In this document: piece by piece, positions 5,485-42,027 of the stretch | Layout of the letters: each line of letters opens with the position of its first letter | Numbering within the stretch: the first letter of the stretch is position 1 | DNA from: Campylobacteraceae bacterium | GTDB taxonomy: Bacteria; Campylobacterota; Campylobacteria; Campylobacterales; Campylobacteraceae | Reading direction: 5' to 3' | NCBI GenBank assembly: GCA_031258205.1 | Contig: JAIRNE010000089.1 | Location: 1-42,127 of the forward strand | Length of the DNA: 42,127 nucleotides | Program-made: the position numbers and the translations under genes | Notes under the pieces: generated by a model | The model's database searches: none | What the model saw: only the letters and a program-made list of their open reading frames with translations | Told to the model about the DNA's origin: nothing

Positions 5485-5705
5485 TCCAAACCTAATTTTT
5501 TATACAGGTCGTGTGCAGATATCGCTCTTTCGCCGCTTTTTTGAAACTCTCTTAACGCTTTAATGCCGTCGTAATAATCTTCCAAATCTTCCAAATGCGT
5601 CATCAAAGCTTCTCTTATTATTTGAGAATTGGAAACTTTAGCCTTTTTGCTTACGATAGACAGTCTATGCTCTAACTCTTCGGGTATTCTAACGGATAAA
5701 GTCAT
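5481..5705 (-). CDS. Ribbon-helix-helix antitoxin
   Basis: MTLSVRIPEELEHRLSIVSKKAKVSNSQIIREALMTHLED...; ATGA overlap with the toxin; start set at MTLSV rather than the longer ORF-track start. Confidence 0.85.
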   Translation of the reverse strand: MTLSVRIPEELEHRLSIVSKKAKVSNSQIIREALMTHLEDLEDYYDGIKALREFQKSGERAISAHDLYKKLGLE

Positions 5706-5761
5706 GTTAACTCCTTTGTATGACAATGTATGACGGATTATAACATAATTTTTATGATTTG
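5574..5761. repeat. 188-bp direct repeat, copy 1 (antitoxin promoter and 5' end)
   Basis: One mismatch seen by eye to 8729-8916, offset 3155 bp. Confidence 0.95.
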
Positions 5762-5927: not shown

Positions 5928-6860
5928 TTAGATTTTGTCTGTATACGGTAGTTGTTTTATATAATCTTCCATAAATTGCCAATCTGGGTTACCATCAATA
6001 GCTGATGGTAATTTGATCATCATTTTTTTACAATTGTTTAATCTAATTTGCCTACCATAGTTCCATCGATAATTTTCTTTATTAATGATTGTTGACAAAA
6101 ATAACCCAATATACTTATTTAAAATATTATTATTTGACAAAATAGTAACATCTGAAGTTGCACAAAAACCTCTGTTTTGATAAAAAGTTGTACATCCAAT
6201 TTTACCTATTGTAATAGAATTTTTATTAAAATCTGGAGCTAAATCTATGCATTTTGATATACCATTATTAGTATTTGTAGCAGAAACATAATGCACGCTA
6301 CCGTTATTATATTCATCTGAATAATAGAATTTACCAGGATTTATTTCAAATAAATCACTCAATTTAAAATATTTCCAGTTTTCTATACTAATATCCATTT
6401 TTTTTACTTTTACTGCAGAAGTTATTAATGACGAATATTCTTTTAGATCTATTTTGTAAATCCATTCCGGTATTTTATCTGGCAATTCTATATTTCCCAA
6501 TGTTCTGTTGGCTTGTCTTCCATAATTGTATCTGTATTTATTATGGCTAATGACACAACAATAATATAATTTTTCTAATAATGTCATTCTTTTTTTAGGA
6601 ATAAGAATAGCGACATGAAATGACACATAAAAATCTTTATTTTGAACAAAGGCCGACAACACACTTCCACCTAAAGCAATAGTTATACATCCAGCGCTAT
6701 AGGGAGCAAAATCATTTATAGCATCAACACAATCAGAAACGCCATTGTTTTCTCCTGTTCTGGAAACAAAATTTACTGAAGGATTAAGCTTGGTTGTGTT
6801 TATCAATTCTAAAGGTTTGGGTTTTATGATTGAAAATAGTTCTTTAATCTTCATAAGCAA
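5928..6860 (-). CDS. Specificity subunit (type I S / BcgI B-like, two TRDs)
   Basis: Two tandem TRD-like halves, each with an NYGRQ motif (YRYNYGRQANRTLGNIELP; YRWNYGRQIRLNNCKKMMIKLP). Confidence 0.85.
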   Translation of the reverse strand: MLMKIKELFSIIKPKPLELINTTKLNPSVNFVSRTGENNGVSDCVDAINDFAPYSAGCITIALGGSVLSAFVQNKDFYVSFHVAILIPKKRMTLLEKLYYCCVISHNKYRYNYGRQANRTLGNIELPDKIPEWIYKIDLKEYSSLITSAVKVKKMDISIENWKYFKLSDLFEINPGKFYYSDEYNNGSVHYVSATNTNNGISKCIDLAPDFNKNSITIGKIGCTTFYQNRGFCATSDVTILSNNNILNKYIGLFLSTIINKENYRWNYGRQIRLNNCKKMMIKLPSAIDGNPDWQFMEDYIKQLPYTDKI

Positions 6861-8724
6861 TTCCGTTCTTAACTAAATATGCAAAATACTCTCTTATCGT
6901 TTTTTCAAAGTCATTCTGATTTAAAACAGAATAATCTGTTTCCATATATGCTTCGGCACACCATTCATCTTTATAATTCACTTCTTTTGTTACGCTTAAC
7001 CCATTAATATTTTTTTTATTGCCATAAGCATTAACCCATTTATTTTTTATATCTTTCCATTTATTGTTAACATCGATTCTGCCTTTTAGCTTTCTTTTTT
7101 CAAAACCATCATTTTTAAAATATCCAAAAAAAGTCTCTTTGCCTTTGGGGTGCGGTGTGTGGGCTTTAAATATGATTATACATGTAACAGCGCCAACAGG
7201 ATAGAACAGATCATCAGGCATACTTAATACTGCGTCTAATGTATGTCTAGATAAAAGACGTTTTTTTAAGTCTATAGTTTTAGCGTTTGAACTTATTGCT
7301 GCTGACATTTGACAAATAGCTATGCATATCCCATCTTTTACGATACAATCCATAGCATTATCAATGAATTCAAGCTGCCCATCTTCGCCAACATCATAAG
7401 GTGGATTTAAAAATACTTTATTGGGTTTTTCTTGCTTAACTAATTCTTTTAAGTTGTCATCAAAACAATCTCCATAATGAATATGACTTTTCCCATCTCC
7501 CATCATCATCATATTAGAGCAAGCGTGAGAGAACATATCGGCTCTACGTTCAATGCCGATAAGCTGCTCCGTTTTTATTTTCTGTTGTAAGCTTAAATTA
7601 TTCCCTACGTCTTTAACCATGTGTTTCATTGCTGATACTAAAAATCCTCCTGTACCACAACAAGGATCAAACACAATATCATTACTTGTTATATTGGCTA
7701 ATTCGCAAAATAAATCTGTGATATGCGTAGGAGTTAACACTAAACCTGTCTTTTTGTCGCTTCCTGCATAGCGTATAAATTGAGTATAAAATCTACCCAA
7801 AACATCAAAATAATTTTGTTTTACATACGGCATAATATCTTTATTGATATCATCAATAAGGTCTCTTAGTAAAGTATTTGCAATGATTTCATGTTTCTTC
7901 TTAAAAGAAATTGATTTTAGAATATGGTTTTGTTTTATTTTTCCATATTCCCCCAATATAACTTTTCGCTTTTGCTCATTTAATCCACGTTCATTTAAAA
8001 CACTTTCGCAAGAAATCAAAAGGCTGTCAATTAAATGTTCATTTGGGTTATAATCTGATGCCAAATCTATTTTATTGTCTATTGTTAATTTGTGCTTAAA
8101 TGTACTAAATGTTTTTGGGAAAGCCCCACTTTGCAAGGCTACAAGAATTGAACTAATTAATGTACATCTTTCAACTTCTGGAATTGAATATCTATGCAAT
8201 CTTTCATTATATTCAATCGCTTTTTTTACTAACTCATTATCTTTTATAGGTTTTATATGTTCATCAATTAGTGAAAAAATTGAACCAAACGGGATTAGAT
8301 GTTTGTCATTCATATCTTTTTCTTTAGACATGCCTTTAATCCAAAGAAAGTGAGATATTTTTATTTCCCTTTCCGTTTCGCCACTTACTGCAACAGCAGT
8401 AACATTGAAGTCATTTTTTAAATACGAAGCATACAAAAGAACGCCATCAACAGCATAATCTTTATATTTGTCTCTATCGGAACTTTCATGTTTTGTTGTA
8501 TCTGCTTTACATTCAATAATCATGATATCTTCAGACTTATTGACAAATGATATTATAAATTCTGGTTTGCCAACACCTTTTCCCGACTTTGATGCATGTT
8601 GAAGGAGTTTATTTATTTTAGGATTTTCTGACTTTTGCTCTTCTATCTTAACTAAATCATTGTTATATCCATTGTCTACTAATAATTTTCGAACAATGTT
8701 TTCGGTAATTCTCTCATTTGCCAT
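6844..8724 (-). CDS. BcgI A-like fused nuclease / N6-adenine DNA methyltransferase
   Basis: N-terminal GKPEFIISFVNKSEDIMIIECKAD (PD-(D/E)XK); DPCCGTGGF and NPPY motifs; no HsdR helicase nearby. Confidence 0.85.
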   Translation of the reverse strand: MANERITENIVRKLLVDNGYNNDLVKIEEQKSENPKINKLLQHASKSGKGVGKPEFIISFVNKSEDIMIIECKADTTKHESSDRDKYKDYAVDGVLLYASYLKNDFNVTAVAVSGETEREIKISHFLWIKGMSKEKDMNDKHLIPFGSIFSLIDEHIKPIKDNELVKKAIEYNERLHRYSIPEVERCTLISSILVALQSGAFPKTFSTFKHKLTIDNKIDLASDYNPNEHLIDSLLISCESVLNERGLNEQKRKVILGEYGKIKQNHILKSISFKKKHEIIANTLLRDLIDDINKDIMPYVKQNYFDVLGRFYTQFIRYAGSDKKTGLVLTPTHITDLFCELANITSNDIVFDPCCGTGGFLVSAMKHMVKDVGNNLSLQQKIKTEQLIGIERRADMFSHACSNMMMMGDGKSHIHYGDCFDDNLKELVKQEKPNKVFLNPPYDVGEDGQLEFIDNAMDCIVKDGICIAICQMSAAISSNAKTIDLKKRLLSRHTLDAVLSMPDDLFYPVGAVTCIIIFKAHTPHPKGKETFFGYFKNDGFEKRKLKGRIDVNNKWKDIKNKWVNAYGNKKNINGLSVTKEVNYKDEWCAEAYMETDYSVLNQNDFEKTIREYFAYLVKNGIAYED

Positions 8725-8860
8725 TGTGATAATCTTCCAAATCTTCCAAATGCGTCATCAAAGCTTCTCTTATTATTTGAGAATTGGAAACTTTAGCTTT
8801 TTTGCTTACGATAGACAGTCTATGCTCTAACTCTTCGGGTATTCTAACGGATAAAGTCAT
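8714..8860 (-). pseudogene. Truncated antitoxin retaining only the RHH DNA-binding part (48 aa), overlapping the methyltransferase start
   Basis: Reads MTLSVRIPEELEHRLSIVSKKAKVSNSQIIREALMTHLEDLEDYHNGK*; identical to 5705 downward until the repeat ends. Confidence 0.85.
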
Positions 8861-8916
8861 GTTAACTCCTTTGTATGACAATGTATGACGGATTATAACA
8901 TAATTTTTATGATTTG
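8729..8916. repeat. 188-bp direct repeat, copy 2
   Basis: See 5574-5761. Confidence 0.95.
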
Positions 8917-11757: not shown

Positions 11758-11830
11758 TGGATTGCTTCGTCGCAAGCGGTTCGCAATGACGGAGAATGGA
11801 TTTCTTCGCTCCGCTCGCAATGACGGGAAA
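11756..11830. repeat. Two tandem REP-like elements
   Basis: ggattgcttcgtcgcaagcggttcgcaatgacgg / ggatttcttcgctccgctcgcaatgacgg. Confidence 0.7.
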
Positions 11831-18201: not shown

Positions 18202-19236
18202 TTAGTTAATTTTTATATTTTGGACAAAAAAGTTTATAACTTTCAGCATAAATTTGTATATTTCAACAAAAAATTCGTTACTTTTATAGTATTCGCAATT
18301 TCTTGATATTCTATCCTCAAACAACTCTTTTAATTCTATAAAACAATGATATTTTATGGGACTGCTGCTGCAAATTGCGTTAAGCGCCAACAATGATGTT
18401 ATAAAATCGCTAATAGTATGATTTTTTAGAAAAACGTTTATTTGCATTTTTGTTGAAAGATTATTTTGAAGCAAAAATTGATAAGTAGTCTTTTTAATAC
18501 TCGCATTATTTTCTCGCAACTTTAAAACACAATTGTTATGCGCTGAGGCGTTTCTCAAACATTTTATGTTAAATAGAGAGTGTTTGATGTCTTTATAGCT
18601 CTGACAAATTCTATCTATTTTTATAAATTTAGATCTATCTTTGTTATAATTACTTTGATTTTCCTCATCAAGCAATTGATAAAAATAGTTGCAAAAACTT
18701 ATTAGATGTCCAAATTGTATCACTTCCACAAAACGCCAAAGCGGTAAATCATCTAAATCCTGCTCCAAAAGCATAGGCGAATTTGGAGAGTAATTTCTGT
18801 TATTTCTGGCATCGTCTGTTTGTTGTTTTATAAATTTTTTAACTTTATCGCCGTCAGCGGTATTTAGAAATAGAGCGATCTCTTTATAACCATCAAAATC
18901 GCTTCTGCTAAAATCCGCCAAAAGCTTTGTTTTTAACATATGCTCAATATCTAAGGTTAACCTTAAAATAAAACGCCTAAGATGCATATCTATCGTAGAC
19001 AAATCTACCAGATAAGCAAAATCTAAATTCACATATCTATCGGCAGCATCTTTTTGATAATTTTCGCAATATGTTTTTAGTTTAAAAAAGTATGTATTTT
19101 CGGTTAGAAACAATTTCGCTTCCGCTTCATTTTTAAGTTCAAACTTTATACCTTTTGTTTTTAGATACTCTATCTGTTCTTCTATTGTAAGCTTTGGTTT
19201 GCGGATACTCAATTTATCACCTTTTTTATATTTCAA
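18202..19236 (-). CDS. Abi_2 (AbiD/F)-family abortive-infection protein with HEPN motif
   Basis: TIEEQIEYLKTKGIKF; YLVDLSTIDMHLRRFILRLTLDIEHMLKTKL; LRNASAHNN (RX4H). Confidence 0.85.
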   Translation of the reverse strand: MKYKKGDKLSIRKPKLTIEEQIEYLKTKGIKFELKNEAEAKLFLTENTYFFKLKTYCENYQKDAADRYVNLDFAYLVDLSTIDMHLRRFILRLTLDIEHMLKTKLLADFSRSDFDGYKEIALFLNTADGDKVKKFIKQQTDDARNNRNYSPNSPMLLEQDLDDLPLWRFVEVIQFGHLISFCNYFYQLLDEENQSNYNKDRSKFIKIDRICQSYKDIKHSLFNIKCLRNASAHNNCVLKLRENNASIKKTTYQFLLQNNLSTKMQINVFLKNHTISDFITSLLALNAICSSSPIKYHCFIELKELFEDRISRNCEYYKSNEFFVEIYKFMLKVINFFVQNIKIN

Positions 19237-23927: not shown

Positions 23928-24001
23928 ATGTCTGAATTTTTCCGTCATTGCGAGCCGCTTGCGGCGCGGCAATCCACCAGGAGATGAAATATGTCTGAAT
24001 T
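23928..24001. repeat. REP-like insertion flanked by 11-bp duplication ATGTCTGAATT
   Basis: ATGTCTGAATT at 23928-23938 and 23991-24001 flank ccgtcattgcgagccgcttgcggcgcggcaatcca. Confidence 0.7.
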
Positions 24002-24799: not shown

Positions 24800-24921
24800 G
24801 ACGTATAGAGAAAACGCCCGACAGCGTTTTGAAAAAAAAGCCCGCCGACTCTCTCTCATTGCAGGTTGACGACGACGAAGCAATCCAGCCCCCCTTCCGT
24901 CATTGCCCCCCCCCTCCGTAA
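24796..24921 (+). pseudogene. Small ORF interrupted by a 64-bp REP-like insertion
   Basis: MRRIEKTPDSVLKKKPADSLSLQVDDDEAIQ then enters REP; removing 24889-24952 restores ...AIQKKSKKKAKDENADK* ending 24997. Confidence 0.6.
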
Positions 24922-24952
24922 TGCCAAGGAGCGAAGCGGCGCGGCAATCCAG
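24889..24952. repeat. REP-like insertion (64 bp)
   Basis: Flanked by gcaatccag; contains ccgtcattgc...gtaatgccaaggagcgaagcggcgcggcaatcc. Confidence 0.65.
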
Positions 24953-33481: not shown

Positions 33482-33626
33482 CATTTGCGAATGCAAATGT
33501 AGCATAAGAAAGGTCCCAAAAATTTGCAGGCAAATTCTTTGGGAGCCCTGAGAGTTGGTTCTTAGGGTGGCTTTGCCGCCCGTCTAAGAACATAAAAATA
33601 GAGGTTCCCTTAAAATTGGGGAACCT
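33482..33626 (+). ncRNA. Repeated leader element, copy A (hairpins H1, H2, H3, H4)
   Basis: H1 33482-33499, H2 33512-33547, H3 33558-33591, H4 33602-33626. Confidence 0.75.
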
Positions 33627-33637
33627 AATTAGTTTCT

Positions 33638-33752
33638 CATTTTGCATTTGCAAAATGTAGCTTCAGAGTTGGTTCTTAGCGGAACTTCGTTTCGCGTCTA
33701 AGAACATAAAAATAGAGGTTCCCTTAAAATTGGGGAACCTAATTTTAAGGAG
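33638..33752 (+). ncRNA. Repeated leader element, copy B (H1', H3', H4, SD) upstream of the tail sheath
   Basis: H1' 33638-33657, H3' 33672-33705, H4 33716-33740; CCTTAAAATT 33722-33731 vs AATTTTAAGG 33741-33750. Confidence 0.8.
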
Positions 33753-33760
33753 AAAATAAA

Positions 33761-34888
33761 ATGGCAGCACAATTTGGCGTTAATGCAACAATCACGGCAG
33801 AGGCGGCACGTCCTATAAGTATAGAGAGTATAACTCCTATCGGTATTGCGGGCACGGCAGAGGGGATTGAGGACGAGCTTTACTTTTACGGCAGCGTAAC
33901 TGCGGCAAAAAAAGCGCTTGAGGCGGCGGAGGCGGCGGGGAGCCTGCTAAGAGCGATAAGAGCTATAGACGAGCAGTCGGTTGAAACTCCGATAATCTTT
34001 AGCGTGTTTACGGAGGGCGGTTCGGAAGGAGAAACAACGACGGCTTGCAGAAACGCTATAGAAGCGTTTAGAAATGCAAGCGGCGAATTTGGCTATACGC
34101 CAAATATTTTAATCGCTCCCGAATATTCGCATATAGCCGCGGTGGCTTCAACGCTTCAGGGCGAAGCCGAACGCCTTAGCGCAACCGGCGTTGTGGATTT
34201 GGGCGGCGTGAACGAGAGCGCGGCTTTAACGCAAGCGGACGCGTTTGGGACAAAAAGATTGATTTTACTCAATCCAAAAGTAAAAGTTTACAGCGAAGAG
34301 CAAAACGATTATGTGTATGAACCCCTGTCCGCAAGATACGCGGGACTTAGAGCCAAAACCGACGGAGAGAGCGAATACGGCTGGGCGGACAGCGCGTCAA
34401 ACAGAGTTTTAAACGGCGTATTTGGTACACAAAGACCGGTGGAATTTGTTATGGGTGCGGATTGTGAAGCCGACAGACTTAGAACTGCGCATATCGGTAC
34501 GGTTATACGGCAAGAAGGTTTTAGGCTTTGGGGCGAAGAGACGACCGATCAGGATACTATTTGGCAGGATTTGACGCGTGTGAGAGTGTTTGACCGCGTA
34601 AGCGAAGCGTGCCAAAAGGGCGTATTTTTTGCCGTAGATAAAAAGGCAGACCAGCTATTATATGCAAAGCTTAGCGTTGAAGAACTGCTAAGGGCGCTTA
34701 AGGGCGCAAGCGTGCTGATAGGTTACGACGTTGAATGGAATGCGGCGCAAAATACGCTTGCGAATATCACGGCAGGTAAATTTTACCTTGATGTCAGGAT
34801 GCAAAATATGCCGATAGTAAAAACGCTTGAGCTTAACTTCATTTACAGCGACGCTTGGGGCGAAGAGTTGATGAACAGTATAGGATAA
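33761..34888 (+). CDS. Tail sheath protein
   Basis: P2 FI-like: PISIESITPIGIAGTAEG...VFFAVDKKADQLLYAKLSVEELLRALKGASVLIGYDVEWN. Confidence 0.9.
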   Translation: MAAQFGVNATITAEAARPISIESITPIGIAGTAEGIEDELYFYGSVTAAKKALEAAEAAGSLLRAIRAIDEQSVETPIIFSVFTEGGSEGETTTACRNAIEAFRNASGEFGYTPNILIAPEYSHIAAVASTLQGEAERLSATGVVDLGGVNESAALTQADAFGTKRLILLNPKVKVYSEEQNDYVYEPLSARYAGLRAKTDGESEYGWADSASNRVLNGVFGTQRPVEFVMGADCEADRLRTAHIGTVIRQEGFRLWGEETTDQDTIWQDLTRVRVFDRVSEACQKGVFFAVDKKADQLLYAKLSVEELLRALKGASVLIGYDVEWNAAQNTLANITAGKFYLDVRMQNMPIVKTLELNFIYSDAWGEELMNSIG

Positions 34889-34901
34889 TAAGGAGATAAG
34901 A

Positions 34902-35405
34902 ATGAAAAAACAGATACCTCAAGTCATTCAGGATTTGAATGCTTTTTTAGACGGCAAAGGTTATTTGGGCGTTGTAAGCGAGGTACAGCTTCCCGCAATC
35001 GTCCAAGAAACCGTAGAGACAAAAGGCGGCGTCGGCGCGAAATATGCGACCGGAGCTATCAGCGCGATGGAAGCGACGCTGAAGTTAAATATTCTTGACG
35101 CAAATACGTATTTATCGTTTGGATTGAATACTTTTGAAAACAGAATACCGATAATTTTAAAAGGCTCTATTTACGATGACGGCAACTCTAAACCCTTAGT
35201 CGTTGTATTTACCGCAGATATAGAGTCTATAACACCAAGCGCATTTAAAGCCGGAGAGGTGATAGAGCAAGAGATAAAATTGCAGGTACAGTTTTACTCT
35301 CTTACGATAGGCGACATTCCCGTTGTCGTGATAGACAGCAGAAATATGATTTGTATGATAGGTGGCGTAGATTATTTGGGCGATCTTAGGAGTAATCTAC
35401 AATAG
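34902..35405 (+). CDS. Major tail tube protein (FII-like)
   Basis: KKQIPQVIQDLNAFLDGKGYLGVVSEVQLPAI...GGVGAKYATGAISAMEATLKL. Confidence 0.9.
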   Translation: MKKQIPQVIQDLNAFLDGKGYLGVVSEVQLPAIVQETVETKGGVGAKYATGAISAMEATLKLNILDANTYLSFGLNTFENRIPIILKGSIYDDGNSKPLVVVFTADIESITPSAFKAGEVIEQEIKLQVQFYSLTIGDIPVVVIDSRNMICMIGGVDYLGDLRSNLQ

Positions 35406-35408
35406 TTG

Positions 35409-35489
35409 GTTCTTAGCGGAACTTTGTTTCGCGTCTAAGAACATAAAAATAGAGGTTCCCTTAAAATTGGGGAACCTAATTTTAAGGAG
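35409..35489 (+). ncRNA. Repeated leader element, copy C (H3', H4, SD) upstream of the tail chaperone gene
   Basis: H3' 35409-35442, H4 35453-35477; CCTTAAAATT 35459-35468 vs AATTTTAAGG 35478-35487. Confidence 0.8.
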
Positions 35490-35497
35490 AAAATATA

Positions 35498-35740
35498 ATG
35501 ACAAGAAGTAAAACCGTAAAATTAGAGGTCGCAAACAAAGAGGTTACGATACACGCTCCAACAGTCGGCGTTATTATTAACGCAAGCGAAAGCAGCAAAA
35601 ATGAAGTCGCTCAAGGCGCGGCAGTTGCCGCCGCTTGCTGCAATATGACTGAAACTGAGATCAGAGCTCTTGACGCGCTTGATTTTAACGTAATCCAAAA
35701 GGTTATTACGGATTTTTTAGGACAAGCGGCGCAAGAGTGA
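35498..35740 (+). CDS. Tail assembly chaperone E-like (zero frame)
   Basis: 80 aa between tail tube and tape measure; P2 gene-E position. Confidence 0.8.
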   Translation: MTRSKTVKLEVANKEVTIHAPTVGVIINASESSKNEVAQGAAVAAACCNMTETEIRALDALDFNVIQKVITDFLGQAAQE

Positions 35741-35871
35741 GTATAGAAGCTCTCGCCCTTGTCGCGCATGTGTTGCATTTTGGTCATAAGGAGATGCTGG
35801 GTATGGATATAAAAACTTTTGGCGAGTATTTAAGATGCTCTAAAGAGATTTTGAAAAAAACTATCGCGTAA
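35719..35871 (+). CDS. E' extension (gpE+E' by -1 frameshift at T TTT TTA 35713-35719)
   Basis: -1 frame RTSGARVSIEALALVAHVLHFGHKEMLGMDIKTFGEYLRCSKEILKKTIA*. Confidence 0.75.
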   Translation, partial: RTSGARVSIEALALVAHVLHFGHKEMLGMDIKTFGEYLRCSKEILKKTIA

Positions 35872-36040
35872 GGTCAAAAAGAATGACGTTAATTATAAAA
35901 AGAATGAACAATAACGCTAAAACGCCCATTGCAAACCCAATGCCAAACGGTTCGTTCGCGGTTAATATCTCCCCGATTGTGCCTGCGGCAATCATTAACA
36001 TTATAGATTGGCGTTTCGTTTTTTTGTTTATTAGTTCCAT
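35861..36040 (-). CDS. Small membrane protein on the opposite strand
   Basis: MELINKKTKRQSIMLMIAAGTIGEILTANEPFGIGFAMGVLALLFILFIINVILFDLTR*; own sigma70-like promoter. Confidence 0.5.
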   Translation of the reverse strand: MELINKKTKRQSIMLMIAAGTIGEILTANEPFGIGFAMGVLALLFILFIINVILFDLTR

Positions 36041-36047
36041 ACCGTTT

Positions 36048-36076
36048 ATTATAACAAAATATTTCTTATTTTACAA
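36048..36076 (-). promoter_or_regulatory. Sigma70-like promoter TTGTAA-N17-TATAAT for the small membrane ORF
   Basis: -35 at 36071-36076, -10 at 36048-36053, minus strand. Confidence 0.55.
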
Positions 36077-36130
36077 CGCAAGAGGCGTGCTAAAAAATGT
36101 AAAAATGTTTTTCGCAAGCGCAGCGCGGCA

Positions 36131-36266
36131 GCATAAGAAAGGTCCCAAAAAATTCGCAGGCAAATTCTTTGGGAGCCCTGAGAGTTGGTTCTTAGGGTGG
36201 CTTTGCCGCCCGTCTAAGAACATAAAAATAGAGGTTCCCTTAAAATTGGGGAACCTAATTTTAAGG
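36131..36266 (+). ncRNA. Repeated leader element, copy D (H2, H3, H4, SD) upstream of the tape measure gene
   Basis: H2 36141-36177, H3 36188-36221, H4 36232-36256; CCTTAAAATT 36238-36247 vs AATTTTAAGG 36257-36266. Confidence 0.8.
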
Positions 36267-36275
36267 ACTTAAAGT

Positions 36276-38435
36276 ATGGAAAAGATGGTTTTAGGCATAG
36301 CCATAGGCTTGAGCGCTCATGGGCTTAGCGGCGTCAAAACCGTTACCGCAAGCTTAAAAGAGCTTAGTCAAATGGCGGCAAAAACAAAAACAGGCATAGC
36401 GGGACTTCAAAAAGAACTTCAAGCATATGATAAAAACTTGTCCGAGATAGGCTCTTTGCAAGCTAACAACGCCGCTTTAAGAAGTAAACTTATAGGGATA
36501 GGCAAAATCGGCGCTATGCTTGGCGGCGGCAAATCCGTAAGTTTGGCGATAGAGTATGAAAATGCCATGGCAGATATAAAAAAAGTTGTTGAGTTTACAA
36601 GCAAAGAGCAGGAAAATCTTTTTGCGCAGCAGATATTGCATCTTTCGCGCGACATTCCTCTTGCCGCAGCCGAACTTGCGCAAATTACGGCAAGCGGCGG
36701 GCAAATGGGTATAGCTGCCGACCAATTGATGGAGTTTACCGAAGTCGTTGCAAAAATGAAAACGGCTTTTGATATGAGCGCAGACGATGCGAGCCGCTCT
36801 ATGGCGACGATAATGAACGTTTACTCACTTGGCATTAAAGAGGCAAAAGAGCTTGGCGACGCTATGAATACGGTATCAAACACGGTAGGCGTAAAAGCAA
36901 GAGACGTAACTGAAGTTATGGCGCGCATCGGCGGTAATGCAAAAGTTTTTGGGCTAACAAGCGAGCAAGCCGCCGCGCTTTCATCTACATTTTTATCTCT
37001 TGGCAAAAGTCCGCAGATAGCCGGAACGGCTATAAATTCTATGCTGTCCAAACTTGCAACGGCAGATACGCAAGGCAAGGATTTTCAAGATACGCTTGAG
37101 AGTATAGGACTTAGCGCGGTTGACTTAAAAGATATGATACAAGCCGACGCGGGGGCAGCTATAGATATAGTTTTAGACTCTCTTGCGGGAGTGGATAAAT
37201 CCGAACAGTTGACGGTCTTGAAAAAACTGTTCGGAGAGGGGATTTCGGACGATATGGCTCTTTTGGTCGGAAGTCTTGGACAGTATAGAAAAGCGCTTGG
37301 CAGCGTTGCCGATAAAACCAAATATATGGGGAGTATGCAAAGAGAGTTTGACGCGCGCAGTAAAACGACAGGCAACAGCATAACAAAAATGAAAAATGCG
37401 TTTTCAGAACTTGGCATAGGGATAGGCAATGCTTTTTTGCCTTTACTGAATTCGATGGCAAAAGGTATTGCATTTTTGATACAGCGTATAGTAGATTTTA
37501 TGAATAAGTATAAAACTTTATCGGAAATTATTATATACGGTATCGGCGCATTAATGGCTGTAAAAACGGCTTCCATAGCTTTAGCTATCGCAAAAAATAC
37601 TCTAAGGATAGCGACTCTAAGGTCGGCAAACGCGTCTATTTTTTCGCGTATCGCAGCTCTTGCCGAGAGCGGCGCAACGACCGCAGGCACGGCGGCGCTT
37701 ATAAGAAAAACGGCGGCTTTAAAATTGGCTTCGATAAGGACGCTTCTTTTTACAAACAGTGTTAATTTTTTAAAAGGTTCTCTTATGCTTGCGAGCGGCG
37801 GCATACAATTTATGTTTGGATGGATAGGCAGCGTGATAAAAGCCATAAGATCATGGACAATTGTACAAGCGGCGTTAAATATTGTTATGACTCTTAATCC
37901 TATAGGGCTTATCATTGCCGCTATTGCCGCCGTGATAGCGATAATAGCCGTATGCGTTACAAAATTTGAATGGGTCAAAAACGTCATAAGCGGCGTTTGG
38001 GAGACGATTAAATTTTTATTTGAGTGGTCGCCTTTAGGACTTTTAGTTAAAGGTGTCGGCGCGGCTATAGATTGGCTGGCTGGTAAATTTGAATGGATAG
38101 GCGCTATAGGCAGTAAAATCGGCGAGTGGTGGGGCGGGATTAAAAGCTTTTTGGGTTTTGGCGGCAGCGAGGATATTGAAGTAAATAAAAATATAAATTC
38201 AAACGGCGTAATTGACAATGTGTATGAACCCGATATCGCGGCTTCGGGAAGTTACGATATGAGCGGCAGTTATGAGGGCGGCGGCGTGAACGTTAATTTT
38301 AACGGGGATTTTCTTATCGGAGTGGGTACGGATGGAAAATTTGATTTTAAAGAGTTTAAAAAAGAGCTTGTTGCCGCCGTTAAAAGCTCTATTGAAAAAG
38401 AGAGGTTCAATATGCAAAACAGGAGTTTGGCATGA
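36276..38435 (+). CDS. Tail tape measure protein
   Basis: TP901-like core (YENAMADIKKVVEFTSKEQ...LAQITASGGQMGI...AINSMLSKLA), hydrophobic segments. Confidence 0.95.
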   Translation: MEKMVLGIAIGLSAHGLSGVKTVTASLKELSQMAAKTKTGIAGLQKELQAYDKNLSEIGSLQANNAALRSKLIGIGKIGAMLGGGKSVSLAIEYENAMADIKKVVEFTSKEQENLFAQQILHLSRDIPLAAAELAQITASGGQMGIAADQLMEFTEVVAKMKTAFDMSADDASRSMATIMNVYSLGIKEAKELGDAMNTVSNTVGVKARDVTEVMARIGGNAKVFGLTSEQAAALSSTFLSLGKSPQIAGTAINSMLSKLATADTQGKDFQDTLESIGLSAVDLKDMIQADAGAAIDIVLDSLAGVDKSEQLTVLKKLFGEGISDDMALLVGSLGQYRKALGSVADKTKYMGSMQREFDARSKTTGNSITKMKNAFSELGIGIGNAFLPLLNSMAKGIAFLIQRIVDFMNKYKTLSEIIIYGIGALMAVKTASIALAIAKNTLRIATLRSANASIFSRIAALAESGATTAGTAALIRKTAALKLASIRTLLFTNSVNFLKGSLMLASGGIQFMFGWIGSVIKAIRSWTIVQAALNIVMTLNPIGLIIAAIAAVIAIIAVCVTKFEWVKNVISGVWETIKFLFEWSPLGLLVKGVGAAIDWLAGKFEWIGAIGSKIGEWWGGIKSFLGFGGSEDIEVNKNINSNGVIDNVYEPDIAASGSYDMSGSYEGGGVNVNFNGDFLIGVGTDGKFDFKEFKKELVAAVKSSIEKERFNMQNRSLA

Positions 38436-39965: not shown

Positions 39966-40011
39966 CTCCCCCCCCCGTAATGCCAAGGAGCTTGCGGCGC
40001 GGCATCCAAAA
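39966..40011. repeat. REP-like element
   Basis: cctcccccccccgtaatgccaaggagcttgcggcgcggcatcca, close to 24904-24950. Confidence 0.65.
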
Positions 40012-41867: not shown

Positions 41868-41897
41868 AGTATTATACCCTCTAAATTACCCTTAAAA
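41868..41897 (+). repeat. Candidate integrase arm-type site, right copy
   Basis: agtattataccctctaaattacccttaaaa, same orientation as 991-1020. Confidence 0.5.
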
Positions 41898-41961
41898 AGT
41901 GTTATTTTATGCGTTTTCATATGTTTTTATGCGTTATCAAAACACTATGAGAAAGCCCTTG

Positions 41962-42027
41962 TTTTGGAGTGTTTAAGTTGTTTTACGTTGTTATGGATTG
42001 TTATGTTCTGGCGGACAGAGAGGGATT
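41962..42027 (+). repeat. attR, 66-bp direct repeat overlapping the intact tRNA-Ser
   Basis: Identical to 873-938; overlaps the T-arm/acceptor end of the tRNA. Confidence 0.95.

Follow-up and report, generated by a model that had tools for sequence, protein, structure and literature searches.

Why should three tail genes of a single prophage open behind one and the same leader, and is that leader a device for controlling tail genes? The stretch of DNA analysed here (42,127 nucleotides, hereafter ‘the window’) is a single 42-kb contig from an incomplete Campylobacteraceae genome and carries prophage genes for a tyrosine integrase, a GpA-type terminase, a lambda-type portal, baseplate J and a contractile tail; assignment to a Mu-like prophage was dropped, given the integrase, the GpA terminase and the lambda-type portal. 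Within the window, the 35-nt sequence AGGTTCCCTTAAAATTGGGGAACCTAATTTTAAGG occurs exactly three times, always on the plus strand, at positions 33716-33750 (copy B), 35453-35487 (copy C) and 36232-36266 (copy D), against 0 copies expected from 100 shuffles. The copies end 10 nt from the start codon of the tail sheath gene (33761-34888; PHROG 23 and Pfam PF04984, Phage_sheath_1), 10 nt from that of a chaperone-like gene, which encodes a small tail protein in the tail-chaperone position (35498-35740; PHROG 166), and 9 nt from that of the tape measure gene (36276-38435; PHROG 28 and Pfam PF10145), all likewise on the plus strand; both the placement and the gene identities bear out the first-pass annotation of this DNA, which had read the leaders as a translational switch tuning tail-protein output. 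As the three copies are identical, they count within the window as one observation only. The tube gene, situated between the sheath and chaperone-like genes, has a plain SD.

Working in the 5' direction from the 35-nt repeat (module 2), we see that the conserved unit is larger: 5' of every copy lies a hairpin, TTGGTTCTTAG-[stem]-CTAAGAACATAAA (module 1), located at 33669-33710 for copy B, 35406-35447 for copy C and 36185-36226 for copy D. A fourth module 1 (copy A, 33555-33596, plus strand) is followed by a truncated module 2 at 33602-33626, in which the first hairpin is present, the SD arm is absent and no start codon lies 3'; copy A is probably the remnant of a tandem duplication. Further upstream again, a small hairpin, CATTTGC-GAAT-GCAAATG (33482-33499, plus strand), lies 5' of copy A, and its counterpart 5' of copy B, CATTTTGC-ATTT-GCAAAATG (33638-33657, plus strand), is changed in both arms. 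In the 1.18 Mb searched of this genome, which is 59% complete, the element is confined to this prophage.

Module 2 can adopt two hairpins. The first (S1) pairs AGGUUCCC with GGGAACCU, its arms lying at 33716-33723 / 33733-33740 in copy B, 35453-35460 / 35470-35477 in copy C and 36232-36239 / 36249-36256 in copy D. The second (S2) is the SD/anti-SD helix, with arms at 33722-33734 / 33738-33750 (loop GAA, 33735-33737), 35459-35471 / 35475-35487 and 36238-36250 / 36254-36266, respectively; in copy B the SD itself, AAGGAG, starts at 33747. S2 had been drawn beforehand as a helix of 10 bp with a 9-nt loop, a description that folding amends to 13 bp, including one G-U pair, closed by a GAA triloop (CCUUAAAAUUGGG-GAA-CCUAAUUUUAAGG). 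In S2, (U)CCUU pairs with the SD (AAGGA); in S1, GGRAC, which lies around the S2 loop, pairs with the preceding GGUYCC so that the SD is left free, the two folds being mutually exclusive through the bases they have in common. A pseudoknot accommodating S1 and S2 simultaneously was rejected, as its connecting loops of 0-1 nt are too short to span the helices. Across both strands of the window, a 13-bp SD helix is found at 3 of 312 SD-plus-start sites, namely these three leaders.

Full leaders are predicted to fold better than shuffled sequences by 4.1 to 4.4 standard deviations. For the sheath leader at 30 C, S1 is calculated at -14.3 kcal/mol and S2 at -16.9 kcal/mol, a preference of 2.6 kcal/mol for S2, with S1 the best fold until the SD arm has been made (these being free energies, not kinetics). 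S1 is also the best fold both for the isolated 42-nt stretch and for the tape-measure leader, and the two states therefore lie close to one another. At 37 C the SD is predicted to be unpaired with a median probability of 0.19 across 19 leaders that carry the element, as against 0.77 across 20 dnaK and sheath leaders without it. A scan also returned weak terminator-like sites in the leaders; an intrinsic terminator was discounted, the stems being followed by AATTTTAAGG with no U run.

Are these pairings retained in relatives? We aligned 27 copies with MAFFT on sequence only, with no use of structure, and from this alignment RNAalifold predicts both the inner stem of module 1 and the SD hairpin. 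The named structure pairs 91.8% of cells, a figure that falls to 70% for shuffles and to 62% or less if the structure is slid along the alignment; its overall covariation is 0.515 versus 0.160 in shuffles (0/500). Within the SD helix, 93.8% of cells are paired and 10 of the 12 pairs show two-sided changes, whilst in the 17 copies from genes other than dnaK pairing in the upper stem reaches 98%, compared with 65% once its 3' arms have been dealt anew, a test that leans somewhat towards pairing since the loop position was picked for the longest stem. As judged from the aligned sequences, relatives thus maintain S2 through paired changes, and the complementarity proposed in the first-pass annotation is conserved; in two of the relatives (G005 and G006), the helix is weak next to the SD.

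For S1, conservation by paired changes is shown in part, and less strongly than for S2. Column counts on the 27-copy alignment give no excess of S1 pairing over shuffles. The variable base of GGTYCC and that of the GRA loop nevertheless form a Watson-Crick pair in 64 of 71 copies and a G-U pair in 5 more (14 T/GAA, 5 T/GGA with G-U, 2 C/GAA and 50 C/GGA; Fisher p=5e-9, without correction for the tree), and the rubredoxin leaders of different species show U-A, U-G and C-G states at this same position. In dnaK leaders the GRAC loop is absent, such that S2 only can form; GGTYCC is still kept there in most species, something for which S1 offers no explanation. Taken together, the SD-helix covariation and the GGTYCC/GRA matching support the earlier proposal of two mutually exclusive hairpins around the SD.

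Covariance searches recover the element in relatives and take it well beyond prophages. Module 1 is present in 41 of 153 Campylobacteraceae genomes, its stem changing in step (GGTTC/GAACAT, GCTAC/GTAGRT, GCTTC/GAAGRT, GCTCC/GGAGAT), and often lies directly 5', in sense, of the start codons of phage and host genes: in a mixed set of 80 matches, an SD-preceded start follows within 70 nt in sense for 31 and in antisense for none (0/80), with about 17 further matches of the same 80 preceding stable RNA genes, by hand count. Module 1 alone precedes phage genes and is found directly 5' of 16S, 23S and tRNA genes, with 14 loci in several Campylobacter genomes immediately preceding a 16S or 23S rRNA gene, one of these genomes (G064) bearing identical copies at all of its rRNA operons; most of the rRNA leaders examined are without it. 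It was considered as the rRNA boxA antiterminator and rejected, a boxA-like ATCTTTGA sitting further upstream in many rRNA leaders and most leaders having no module 1. Many copies reside on Campylobacter-type prophage contigs, and some Campylobacter genomes and prophages hold arrays of module 1 that do not precede genes. Viral contigs also gave matches to module 1 with GGTTCC after it, apparently by chance.

In the same genus, module 2 precedes the chaperone gene of two related prophages, a host gene with an ACT domain (where the SD helix reaches 15 bp) and one other gene, whose helix contains G-U pairs. In Arcobacteraceae, nearly every match to a model of module 1 that includes no SD (R1) then has module 2 and a start codon 3' of it. 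Matches to R2, a model that spans both modules and includes the SD, occur in 91 of 399 genomes of the order Campylobacterales, individual inspection having covered this genus and the Arcobacteraceae, with at least 9 copies per genome in about 11 Arcobacteraceae genomes; in sense, 90 of 96 matches lie at start codons with an SD, a proportion biased by the SD that R2 contains. The genes behind the element comprise dnaK, rubredoxin, threonine synthase (thrC), P-II (glnB), lytB/ispH and gidA, as well as a SufC-resembling ABC protein, a DnaJ-domain gene, urease alpha, hypA, a histidine biosynthesis gene and others, with no evident common function. An exact-spacing pattern search for module 2 in Campylobacteraceae gave chance matches only, and BLASTN against named phages and plasmids gave nothing convincing. 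Upstream of dnaK, we also note a conserved TTGACCGNNATGTCA box in Arcobacteraceae (31 loci); the element, where present, lies between this box and dnaK.

On the strength of these matches, the element is a dispersed, sense-oriented leader of Campylobacterales, not a phage-specific tail switch. The earlier idea of a translational switch thus stands as regards the exclusive, conserved hairpins about the SD, and falls as regards its tail genes: the leader is found before dnaK, rubredoxin, glnB and thrC, its first half also precedes rRNA genes, and a plain SD precedes the majority of other Campylobacteraceae sheath genes.

How, then, did it come to stand before three genes of this prophage? About 20 other Campylobacteraceae prophages have a plain SD at the sheath gene, which rules out the leader as a conserved part of that gene; one viral contig has a sheath-like gene with module 1 alone. 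The G005 prophage, whose sheath is 79% identical, carries the leader at the chaperone gene only, and is without it at the sheath and tape-measure genes. To judge from this one close relative, the lineage of the window probably acquired the leaders at its sheath and tape-measure genes, each placed exactly before the start codon and with the SD spacing kept, loss of both in G005 being the alternative that might also account for the difference. Judging from their isolate names, two same-genus relatives (Campylobacteraceae MAGs Po218_bin111 and Iy174_bin11) would be of termite-gut origin. At comparable sites, namely before another sheath gene and at two 16S loci, a dispersed palindromic repeat of another type (AACTTTAGGTGGGT...) is found instead.

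The window has several other features of note. A 198-bp repeat, 98% identical between its copies at 5564-5761 and 8719-8916, flanks a type IIG restriction-methylation gene with its specificity subunit (5928-8724, minus strand), and an Abi_2/AbiD-type gene (18202-19236, minus strand) sits within the head-gene module, opposite to the direction in which the module is read. A 142-bp repeat (82%) is found near both ends of the window, at 797-938 and 41886-42027, the second copy adjoining the tyrosine integrase gene; these are possibly attachment sites. Behind the chaperone-like gene an overlapping frame continues (35715-35860; SIEALALVAHV...), as it does in G005, in an arrangement like the P2 E/E' frameshift. 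Other dispersed repeats, of the GTCATTGCGAGC...GCAATCCA type, lie at 11758-11796, 23938-23976, 24897-24926 and 39975-40004.

The main rival to a regulatory function takes the element for a passive dispersed palindromic repeat, a mosaic miniature element whose hairpins are kept for spread, whose SD complementarity comes from a palindrome with the SD as its right end, and which affects expression mildly. Its modular, dispersed nature, the many copies before unrelated genes, the module-1 arrays lying elsewhere and the fact that the window copies are recent duplicates all suit such a reading; indeed, as expected of a small dispersed repeat, a genome may hold numerous intergenic copies that form hairpins at sites unrelated to one another, and in being short, modular, dispersed between genes and capable of forming RNA hairpins before many unrelated genes the leader resembles BOX, NEMIS and ERIC. 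It departs from these in that an SD at its 3' end is held in one hairpin with which a second, conserved hairpin competes, and in lying in one orientation directly before start codons. The strong sense bias, the start-codon placement and the preserved SD spacing tell against passivity, as does the match of the loop with GGTYCC, a motif external to the SD hairpin, since a palindrome would not require such matching; on balance we consider this explanation rather unlikely. CsrA-type proteins bind GGA motifs, and a trans-acting regulator of that kind might select one of the two folds, nearly all non-dnaK copies having GGA in or at the S2 loop as well as AAGGA in the SD. The dnaK copies, however, have no GGA in the loop, and GRA is also demanded by the pairing with GGTYCC, leaving us to judge such a selector unlikely.

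It is doubtful, in turn, that module 1 serves as an RNA-processing or protein-binding site that determines the 5' ends, or the stability, of rRNAs and mRNAs alike, with the SD hairpin secondary. Module 1 does stand alone within a few nt of 16S/23S 5' ends in several Campylobacter genomes, and its stem covaries, but most of the rRNA leaders that we examined are without it and the conservation of the SD hairpin would be left unexplained. Melting of the SD hairpin by heat, as in an RNA thermometer, is suggested by the element’s presence before dnaK and the DnaJ-like gene in Arcobacteraceae, by the single mismatch that dnaK copies keep between the SD stem and the upper stem, and by a modelled SD accessibility in the sheath leader of 0.07 at 25 C as against 0.29 at 42 C. 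ROSE and fourU thermometers similarly place the SD in an imperfect hairpin, as here before dnaK in some Arcobacteraceae; they differ from the leader, for which little temperature response is predicted over all copies (median accessibility 0.31 at 15 C and 0.39 at 42 C, n=85) though some single leaders respond more strongly in the model, and neither has an Rfam match in the window or in the Campylobacteraceae or Arcobacteraceae copies. Most genes behind the element, moreover, are not heat-shock genes. The small response makes a general thermometer unlikely, and we would put this reading as a whole at very improbable; at dnaK, where the mismatch beside the SD stem is conserved, such a role may exist.

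Neither the window nor the Campylobacteraceae and Arcobacteraceae copies match any family of Rfam 15 at gathering threshold, in keeping with the first-pass annotation, which had recognised no named family. Literature searches on Campylobacter repeats, thermometers and phage leaders, run over the main text of open-access papers, returned no description of the element; nor did we find it described in the main text of Stav et al. 2019 (PMC6429828), a survey of the intergenic RNAs of Arcobacter sp. L.

The reading that we favour, at somewhat better than even confidence, is that of a widespread translational-attenuator leader with two exclusive folds, a dispersed cis-acting RNA in Campylobacterales from which the downstream gene takes its ribosome-binding site. 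We prefer it because of the S2 covariation, the base matching in S1, the sense placement at start codons and the low predicted accessibility of the SD; counting against it are the S1 column counts, which are no higher than those of shuffles, the S2-only leaders of dnaK, the weak helix of G005 and G006, and the unrelated nature of the genes. In this attenuator the leader would be transcribed, S1 would form first as the RNA emerges and S2 later, so that ribosomes would load best on fresh mRNA and translation would be damped afterwards. Folding kinetics control the maturation gene of phage MS2, and by analogy a metastable early hairpin could delay the SD-hiding fold such that fresh RNA is translated; the leader differs from MS2 in sequence and fold, in being local and dispersed, and in belonging to a DNA phage and to host genes. 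Translational riboswitch platforms (anti-SD / anti-anti-SD) likewise hide or free the SD by exclusive pairing, and such pairings are conserved in the leader, strongly for S2 and by base matching for S1. Unlike riboswitches, the leader shows no conserved ligand-binding core or Rfam match: its upstream stem varies freely and we find neither a conserved aptamer nor related targets, the unrelated genes arguing against any one metabolite as ligand.

In the prophage, the chaperone gene was probably the original site of the leader, which afterwards spread as copies to the sheath and tape-measure genes; these structural genes would thereby share a translational brake. More tentatively, and with distinctly less than even confidence, we suggest an undescribed, spreading cis-regulatory RNA of Campylobacterota that brings many unrelated host genes, and those phage structural genes by which it has been captured, under one translational signal read through a two-state SD switch. 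The abundance of copies in Arcobacteraceae means that cultured relatives suitable for tests should exist. If the leader works as we infer, one small element controls the translation of many unrelated Campylobacterota genes, and tail genes of a phage have come under a host-type leader that the phage copied; such a case, in which a dispersed repeat serves as a shared regulatory switch, would be open to testing.
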